Assembly (NCBI RefSeq): GCF_900111935.1
Contig: NZ_FOYN01000002.1
Location: 620,001-684,000, forward strand
Direction of reading: 5' to 3'
Length of the DNA: 64,000 nucleotides
DNA from: Halorubrum sodomense
Lineage (GTDB): Archaea > Halobacteriota > Halobacteria > Halobacteriales > Haloferacaceae
Positions within the stretch are counted from its first letter, which is position 1. Each line of letters begins with the position of its first letter. A program made the position numbers and the translations under genes. This document shows positions 6,950 through 47,655 of the stretch, piece after piece. The notes beneath the pieces are model-generated. The model worked only from the letters and a program-made list of their open reading frames with translations, was not told where the DNA came from and did no database searches.

Positions 6950-7470
6950 TTTATAAACAGCTAACAGCAGATCGATGACGAACGGCTCCAAAGCCCCCGT
7001 CGCTCGCCTATGAATAACTGACTGAATATCGGCGGCAAACACCTCCAAAGCCCCAGCTGTGAGGCGGGCGCACGCTCGCTGTCGTTCGAGACGCCGAAGG
7101 CGTCTCGTGATGACGAGAGAGCTTCGCTCTCTCGAACCACGCTCCTCGGTCGCTCACTCCGTTCGCTCCCTGCGGTGCTTACGTCGTCATCGGAACGCGG
7201 AGCGTTCTGATTGGCTCACGAGAGCTCCGCTCTCGTGAACGCCTGCGCCCGCCTCACGGCAGCGTGGCGCGTAGCGCCACGGGCAACCGGCGGCGGAGCC
7301 GCCGGTGACTGCCCCTTTGCGTCCCGCCCCGCACAGCACCGCACCTCACGCCTCCCCAGCCTCGTCGGCCGGCCTCCGCGTTGCTCCGGCCGACCGACTC
7401 CCTCGCGGTCGGTTCGCGGCCGCCGGTGGCGGCCGCTCACCGGCGCGCCACCGCGTCGTCCATTTATAAA
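6950..7470 (-). ncRNA. Structured repeat element, copy A (candidate non-coding RNA)
   Basis: No convincing gene lies between 6909 and 7486. Read on the minus strand, the region starts with TTTATAAA (7463-7470). A hairpin (7410-7442), a stem GTCGGCC/GGCCGAC (7364-7370 with 7388-7394) and a conserved block around GAGGCTGGGGAGGCGTGAGG follow. A 13-bp stem (7245-7257 with 7059-7071) encloses the conserved GACGTAAGCACCGCAGG segment. The end is GGGGCTTTGG followed by a second tail unit exactly 57 bp on, ending in TTTATAAA (6950-6957). Relative to the other copies it carries extra perfect hairpins (7087-7108, 7114-7134, 7216-7238, 7265-7281, 7287-7307). The same ordered blocks recur in three other places, so it is a repeat family. 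Transcription is inferred only. Confidence 0.6.
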
Positions 7471-21156: not shown

Positions 21157-21545
21157 TTTATAAATCAACACGCGGTCGGCGCGTGCCTGCGAGCGGCCGG
21201 AGCGAAGCGGAGGCCGCGAGACAGCACGCGCGAGGGACGCGGCGAACGCGAGCGGCGCAGCCGCGAAGCGTGAGCCGCGAGGCTGGGGAGGCGTGAGGCT
21301 GCGGCGCTGTGCGGGGCGGGGCGGGGACTCAAAGGGGCAGTCGCGAGGACGTCGCAGACGACGTAAGCACCGCAACGAGGGAGCGAACGAAGTGAGTGAC
21401 CGAGTGAGGAGCGCAGCGAGTGTGCGGCGTCCTCGCGGCTGGGGCTTTGGAGGGGTTCGCCGTCGATTCGTCGGCAGCCGTTTATAAACGAGCAGTTAGG
21501 TATGTGGAGGGGTTCGCCGTCGCTTCGCCAGCAGCCACTTATAAA
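21157..21545 (+). ncRNA. Structured repeat element, copy B (candidate non-coding RNA)
   Basis: The 553 bases between pyk and thi4 hold this element and no gene. TTTATAAA (21157-21164) precedes a hairpin (21179-21231) by about 15-20 nt. A stem CGCGGC/GCCGCG follows (21238-21243 with 21274-21279). Next come the conserved block GAGGCTGGGGAGGCGTGAGG and CAAAGGGGCAG. A 14-bp stem (21338-21351 with 21428-21441, one G-U pair) encloses GACGTAAGCACCGCAACGAGG. A GGGGCTTTGGAGG tail ends in TTTATAAA (21481-21488). A second tail begins exactly 57 bp after the first and ends near 21545. Reading frames through it are low quality and not shared between copies. Confidence 0.6.
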
Positions 21546-21597
21546 AGAACGGCCGAGTACGGGGGGAGTCCGCAACCGGAACGTCAGCGGTGGGTTT

Positions 21598-22671: not shown

Positions 22672-22984
22672 CATCAGAGCCTCAGCCGCTCGGCGATACG
22701 GGAATGCTCTCGTAGGGAACACCACCAAAGCCCCAGCCGCGAGGGCTCGGTGCGCTCGCTGCGCTCCTCGTCGCTCGTTTCACTCGCTCCTGCGGTGCTT
22801 GCGTCGCGCGCCGTCGCCCTCTCGTCTGCCCCTCTGCGTCCCGCCCCGCTCCGCACAGCACCGCAGCCTCACGCCTCCCCAGCCTCGCGGTTCGCTCGGG
22901 CCTCCCTCCGGTCGCCCCTCGCTCACCGCTCCCTCGCGCGTGCTGTCTCGCGGCCGCCGAGGGCGGCCGCTCGCAGGCACGCGC
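22672..22984 (-). ncRNA. Structured repeat element, copy C (candidate non-coding RNA)
   Basis: On the minus strand it begins with a long hairpin (22936-22984). A stem GCGGT/ACCGC follows (22925-22929 with 22887-22891), then GAGGCTGGGGAGGCGTGAGG. The distal stem is reduced to GAGGGC/GCCCTC (22816-22821 with 22741-22746) around GACGCAAGCACCGCAGG. The element ends with the GGGGCTTTGG tail (CCAAAG on plus at 22725). A second tail is recognisable but degenerate, starting near 22674 (51 rather than 57 bp away). No TATAAA box precedes the first hairpin, so this copy may be silent. Confidence 0.55.
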
Positions 22985-23083
22985 CGCCGCCGCGTCCGGT
23001 CGTCTTCCGCCCTAGCTGCTGACCGTCTTGTCCGCCCCCAACTCGCAGCCTTTTTACCTACGCTGGCGATAGAAGTGCCTACT

Positions 23084-47310: not shown

Positions 47311-47655
47311 TGGCGCGTGCCTGCGAGCGGCCCTCGGCCGCGAGCAGCACGCGCGAGGGAGTCGGCCGACCGGAGCGAAGCGGAGGGAGGCCGACGAGGC
47401 TGGGGAGGCGTGAGGTGCGGTTGCTGTGCGGTGCGGGGTGGGACTCAAAGGGGCAGCCGCGAGGACGAAGCACCGCGACGTAAGCACCGCAGGAACGAGC
47501 GAAGTGAGTGACGAGGAGCGCAGCGAGCCGCGCGAGTCCTCGCGGCTGGGGCTTTGGCGGTGTTCGCGGTCGATCTGTCGTTTGCTATTTATAAGTGAGC
47601 GGCTGGGGCTTTGGCGGTGCTCACCGCGGCGTCGTTGTTCATTTATCAGTGAGCC
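47311..47655 (+). ncRNA. Structured repeat element, copy D (candidate non-coding RNA)
   Basis: The 519-base gap between minD and the rhodanese/MBL gene holds this element. A hairpin (47313-47354) is followed by stem GTCGGCC/GGCCGAC (47361-47367 with 47389-47395). The central block GAGGCTGGGGAGGCGTGAGG and CAAAGGGGCAG come next. A perfect 13-bp stem (47454-47466 with 47536-47548) encloses GACGTAAGCACCGCAGGAAC. Two tail units GGCTGGGGCTTTGG start 57 bp apart (47544 and 47601), ending ATTTATAAG and ATTTATCAG. No clear TATA box precedes the first hairpin. It could still be read from elsewhere. Confidence 0.6.

Follow-up and report, generated by a model that had tools for sequence, protein, structure and literature searches.

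Four copies of an intergenic repeat, A to D, lie in the 64,000-nucleotide stretch of Halorubrum sodomense DNA analysed here (the window; G000:C8:620001-684000, in a genome of 3.03 Mb), and their stems differ on both sides of the helix beside a block that hardly changes. The question raised by this locus is whether such variation marks a folded RNA with a conserved core, which was the original prediction, or has another origin. Direct reading of the sequence reproduced the stem 2 arms of copy B, CGCGGC (21238-21243) and GCCGCG (21274-21279), those of copy C on the minus strand, GCGGT (22925-22929) and ACCGC (22887-22891), and the inner 5' hairpin, CTGC/GCAG in copy D versus CGGT/ACCG in copy A. 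GTCGGCC/GGCCGAC had been ascribed to both A and D; it is found in copy D, but stem 2 of copy A is GTCGGTCGGCC/GGCCGGCCGAC.

Anatomy of the element

The copies of the window (Table 1) are members of one high-copy family, an intergenic element of about 250 bases with an RNA-like fold, whose core of about 245 nt contains three stem systems, P1, P2 and P3. The alignment of 28 copies from the same genome, read 5' to 3' on the element strand, gives the order P1, GAGGGA, P2, GAGGCTGGGGAGGYGTGAGG, a variable G-rich linker and P3, with the consensus start GCGGTGGCGCGTGCC. P1 consists of GCGCGTGC/GCACGCGC, a 3-bp helix, a CGAG/CGAG tandem G-A joint and an apical hairpin. P2, the stem of the original prediction, stands between the joint GAGGGA and the unpaired block GAGGCTGGGGAGGYGTGAGG, and P3 encloses a nested arm of about 100 nt between an opening CAAAG-GGG-CAG and a closing CTG-GGG-CTTTG. 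As drawn, the fold leaves GAGGGA and GAGGCTGGGGAGG unpaired in the model, and the block described originally as almost unchanged is indeed nearly invariant in alignments of the genome's own copies. No G-quadruplex was predicted in the core of 40 copies by the ViennaRNA quadruplex option.

One to several units of about 58 bp follow P3, many of them with a TTTATAA end. The tail unit (CTGGGGCTTTGG...TTTATAA or ...TATCGCCGAGCG) is present in some species in at least four near-identical tandem copies (tails of L097 and L076). The 58-bp promoter repeats of halovirus HF2 were considered as relatives of this unit and rejected, the motifs being unrelated. Halovirus promoter repeats have shown activity in a bgaH reporter in Haloferax volcanii (PMC8707807). 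A TTTATAAA-like box (at most one mismatch) is located 16-22 nt 5' of 42 of the 107 copies examined (about 40%).

P3 of copy A (7045-7319, minus strand) is enlarged at three helix joints by three extra pairs of hairpins such as TGGTTCGAGAGAGCGAAGCTCTCTCGTCATCACGAGACGCCTTCGGCGTCTCGAACGAC. L030, L065 and L097 have similar doublets at the same P3 joints, and further ones were detected between P1 and P2 in L008, L078, L086 and the copy at C8:714443 of the window genome. Hairpin doublets of the copy A type look like small nested hairpin elements.

Table 1. Coordinates of element copies A to D and of their parts, numbered within the window
Feature	Position	Strand	Remarks
TTTATAAA box, ~20 nt 5' of copy B	21157..21164	+	sequence reading
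Copy B stem 1 (P1), GCGCGTGC/GCACGCGC	21178..21231	+	inner hairpin; tandem CGAG/CGAG (G-A, A-G) joint
Copy B joint GAGGGA	21232..21237	+	invariant; separates stems 1 and 2
Copy B stem 2 (P2), CGCGGC...GCCGCG	21238..21279	+	stem of the original prediction
Copy B core GAGGCTGGGGAGGCGTGAGG	21279..21298	+	conserved, unpaired
Copy B stem 3 (P3), CAAAG GGG CAG...CTG GGG CTTTG	21324..21450	+	long nested arm
Copy B tail	21451..21560	+	2 units of ~58 bp; ends are TTTATAA-like boxes
Copy C complete core	22725..22985	-	R1 22867-22985, R2 22725-22842
Copy C stem 2 arms	22925-22929 with 22887-22891	-	
Copy D complete core	47312..47557	+	R1 47312-47415, R2 47440-47557
Copy D tail units	47558..47655	+	
Copy A 5' domain (stems 1 and 2, core)	7344..7451	-	
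Copy A stem 3	7045..7319	-	enlarged; three inserted hairpin pairs

Pairing is kept beyond the controls

The structure was assigned by hand on sequence-only alignments of 32 copies for the 5' domain (stems 1 and 2) and 29 copies for the 3' domain. Both-sided changes were detected in 39 of the 67 modelled pairs (16/28 in the 5' domain and 23/39 in the 3' domain). In the 5' domain 89.5% of the cells pair, versus 81.1% in shuffles and 25-48% when slid, and covariation is 0.233 versus 0.093 shuffled (sd 0.009, reached by 0/500 shuffles); the 3' domain gave 93.2% pairing versus 80.8%, and covariation of 0.351 versus 0.140 (0/500). Slid controls stayed at or below 0.075 in both domains, a comparison biased toward the structure because the structure was derived from the same copies; the shuffle control and the independent hits are free of that bias. 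Pattern and model searches gave 178 distinct Halorubrum hits, in which 6.1 of 7 P2 positions pair, versus 4.93 when arms are dealt among copies (maximum 5.06), and 52 hits in other genera gave 5.63 versus 4.52 (maximum 4.77).

The both-sided changes might be an alignment effect of unrelated GC-rich hairpins without a common fold, since chance pairing is frequent at about 78% GC and shuffled arms still pair at about 81%. All controls were exceeded, however, and joints at defined positions stay invariant from genus to genus; the comparison of P2 arms with dealt arms and the P3 segment correlations given below refute this reading, to which we attach almost no probability. Independent variation of the arms in a larger alignment had been named as the outcome that would refute the original prediction; the arms did not vary independently, whether judged by shuffles, dealt arms or P3 segments.

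RNAalifold alone returned 57 pairs, 28 of them with both-sided change, and, like some single-sequence folds, predicted that the core pairs with CTTTGG instead. We prefer the CAAAG/CTTTG helix because it changes jointly from A-U to G-C in 14 of 69 sequences; the core-CTTTGG pairing may be an alternative state. The outermost P1 pairs hardly vary. Single-sequence fold z-scores were -5.45, -3.35 and -2.05 for copies B, C and D, and -1.48 for the antisense of D.

The element strand and the origin of paired changes

G-U pairs outnumber A-C on the element strand (114 versus 28, with 32 columns leaning to G-U and 9 to A-C, p 4e-4), also in the sequence-only alignments (50 versus 14; columns 26 versus 8, p 0.003); columns known to be misaligned were omitted from these counts, whose cells are not independent events. 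The tandem G-A joints are nearly always retained (31/32, 26/29 and 26/29 copies), the GGG/GGG joint without exception (29/29). In P3 the two basal arms, about 100 nt apart, covary across copies (r 0.73), as do those of the middle segment (r 0.77), versus r 0.08-0.14 for non-partners, basal against middle, and r -0.01 to 0.20 for the apex between them. A single conversion tract or shared descent is disfavoured for P3, because the middle would have been carried along.

The element could instead work at the DNA level, its double-stranded palindromes or cruciforms being the target of a chromosome or recombination protein and quasi-palindrome repair copying keeping the two arms alike. The inverted repeats are strong and very GC-rich, stems are swapped as units, and the P3 apex is inverted in one of the genome's own copies (C9:684530), all of which this explanation would accommodate. 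It does not account for the asymmetry of G-U over A-C or for the conservation of unpaired joints, and copying of one arm from the other is disfavoured because it would have erased the near-invariant tandem G-A and GGG/GGG mismatches; we consider it improbable. The G-U excess, the kept non-canonical joints and the tracking of P3 arms together favour selection of pairing in an RNA of the element strand, and a folded RNA rather than a DNA palindrome. The original suggestion of a folded RNA with a conserved core thereby gains support, and evolution appears to preserve the fold while the stem sequences change.

Stems at fixed sites

The thi4 locus, beside which copies B and C lie, was compared in 30 Halorubrum genomes. 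Most have an element in the gap upstream of thi4; this gap is empty in L081, L089, L090, L093, L098 and L099, and holds a copy of opposite orientation in L100. The downstream gap contains the element with a common 5' flank in several species, and the P1, P2 and P3 stems differ among them. Shortened copies without P3, or without P2 and P3, were observed at this locus in L084, L075, L094 and L095, apparently produced by deletion between two GGCTGGGG repeats of one element.

Among 56 elements of other Halorubrum records, 20 have both flanks matching an element-bearing gap of the window genome, and all 20 have the same orientation, none the opposite (6/10 in an earlier set). P2 differs in sequence in 20/20 of these pairs and both versions fold in 20/20. 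Such sites offer a natural experiment of complete helix turnover at a fixed position with the fold kept, in which real selection on pairs and hairpin replacement can be separated. In one shared-site pair (L253) the relative has an atypical P2, perhaps with an inverted segment. At the window genome's copy with the inverted P3 apex (L034, G000:C9:684530), the 3' model matches both strands.

Pairs of copies within the genome show uncorrelated identities of P1, P2 and P3 (r 0.07, 0.02 and 0.03), and copies with identical P2 have a P3 identity of 0.593, versus 0.584 in random pairs. Because the identities are uncorrelated, the hairpins reassort on the same joints, probably through recombination between copies, and both-sided variation is therefore partly cassette replacement. 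The claim of compensatory change on both sides stands in that pairing is kept beyond the controls; it needs correction in that whole hairpins are partly replaced, so that both-sided counts across paralogues overstate the number of separate compensatory mutations.

We tentatively suggest, as a possibility that we would not yet favour, a class-wide haloarchaeal RNA family whose hairpins are exchangeable cassettes: each of the roughly 100 or more copies per genome has its own mix of stems on invariant joints, stems are swapped at fixed sites between sister species, and selection would act only on pairing and joints. If so, the cell would hold a combinatorial repertoire of RNAs with a common core and one common binding factor. 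At five loci of G016 (L226 and L241-L244) the module GCACCGCAG...GAGGAGCGCAG, the P3 cap in Halorubrum, forms stem 2 in the genus of G016, which suggests that modules move between stems.

Copy number, placement and distribution

The 5' model has 112 matches at E<=0.001 in the window genome, 107 of which were examined with their flanks, using gene calls from a codon-usage script and disregarding weak calls within the element itself. None of the 107 copies lies inside a called gene; 38 occupy convergent, 16 divergent and 52 co-directed gaps (++ 22, -- 30). The element starts at a median of 56 nt past a same-strand stop codon versus 114 nt from a divergent start codon. Association with tRNA loci (7/107) is unremarkable.

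All 30 sampled genomes of the genus have many copies. In other genera the P1 and P2 sequences are unrelated, with both hairpins, GCGAGGGA and GAGGYTGGGGAGG retained, and a P3-like domain containing CTGAAAGGGGC and GGGGCTTTC is found as well in G014, G006 and G016. Of the 292 genomes and 77 genera sampled from the class, 66 and 17, respectively, have the pattern GCGAGGGA-N(20-50)-GAGGYTGGGGAGG, with up to 191 occurrences per genome; its reversed control gave no hits in the 292 genomes. Named matches among those listed are all haloarchaeal (Halorubrum, Halorussus, Haladaptatus, Haloparvum, Halobellus, Halosimplex and a Natrinema plasmid). The element motif is present in only 2 of 2.9 million viral contigs and in 7 plasmid records, and phage records matched neither the core nor the tail.

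These data also bear on a selfish or formerly mobile repeat of PATE or SINE type, whose folded RNA or single-stranded DNA served self-copying and whose present copies are old and have no host role. Such an origin would fit the many intergenic copies on both strands, patchy by genus, the empty sites and the opposite-orientation copy at thi4, the tails of repeated 58-bp units and the comparable abundance of PATEs in Haloquadratum (PMC3119063). Yet near-identical recent dispersed copies are absent: the nearest other copy in the genome has a median identity of 85%, with no recent burst, and only tandem neighbours or short truncated fragments match exactly. The longest flank matches equal those of shuffled pairs and give no sign of the target-site duplication expected of a DDE-type MITE. 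End profiles revealed no shared inverted ends, the 3' boundary being blurred by the tail units. No IS605/TnpB/Y1 parent was found: the window genome has no match to the Y1/RAYT transposase (PF01797), its 8 TnpB loci show no element ends, and 1 of 10 Y1 loci of relatives has an element copy, merely nearby at about 1 kb. Sites shared across species keep pairing despite rapid stem change, unlike dead repeats. We regard this origin as rather unlikely.

Comparison with known repeats

The element resembles REP/BIME repeats (PMC3733652) in high copy number, strictly extragenic position, palindromic nature, pair-preserving stem variation and, by the placement counts above, a location near gene 3' ends and off promoters. 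REPs differ as hairpins of 20-40 bp that are tagged with GTAG or CGTC and associated with a Y1 (RAYT) transposase, whereas the element has its longer core, another start and neither tag. It shares with the PATEs of Haloquadratum (PMC3119063) haloarchaeal hosts, non-coding palindromic sequence, lack of target duplication, a range of about 50-190 copies and invasion by small hairpin inserts; in contrast to PATEs and IS605 ends, its stems covary, its joints are invariant and its sites are common to several species.

Covarying helices around an unpaired conserved core recall the structured RNA families of Rfam. The window and 12 related loci had no Rfam match at gathering thresholds, and copy D had none of relevance at E values up to 5. 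The bcr1-type repeats of the Bacillus cereus group are interspersed on the chromosome and have a conserved predicted RNA fold. Like the element they are structured chromosomal repeats, unrelated to it in sequence and host, and to our knowledge reassorting stems have not been reported for them. Mobilome context for that group is given in PMC6542083. No description of the element was found in the limited set of literature searched, and it is apparently an undescribed structured repeat without an Rfam entry. It is present in about 100 copies per Halorubrum genome, occurs in several families of a well-studied class and, if transcribed, would be among the most numerous structured RNAs of archaea.

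A putative RNA domain between genes

The fold, the strand bias, the intergenic placement, the inheritance at fixed sites with pairing kept and the recurrence across the class were observed. We propose, with a probability of roughly 55%, that this haloarchaeal intergenic family provides a folded RNA domain that works at transcript ends or in convergent gaps and binds through its invariant joints. The element would act, or would once have acted, as folded RNA of the element strand, its stems being interchangeable scaffolds; a single trans-acting factor common to the copies would probably make contact with the tandem G-A motifs and the G-rich joints, which are nearly invariant. As a structured 3' or intergenic domain between neighbouring, mostly convergent, genes it might block read-through or serve transcript-end protection or processing. 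Since gene 3' ends are occupied and promoters avoided, a use like that of REP/BIME in E. coli is most likely; transcription, the factor and the transcript-end role are what we infer.

Several findings count against an RNA domain: the TTTATAAA box in about 40% of the copies only, the hardly varying outermost P1 pairs, an orientation to neighbouring genes without the bias expected of a lone 5' or 3' UTR role, the patchy presence among genera, as in a former mobile element, and the alternative core-CTTTGG pairing. The TTTATAAA box is a doubtful candidate for the element's own promoter, as its spacing would put a normal start inside stem 1, which does not suit a transcript with full P1.

A separate observation concerns a 15-kb contig (C14 of G322, locus L239) with nine two-hairpin elements in 11 kb, located mostly 50-72 nt past the stop codons of successive genes and lying on the strand opposite to them. 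The surroundings include small zinc-ribbon genes, and the region looks like a mobile or viral segment.
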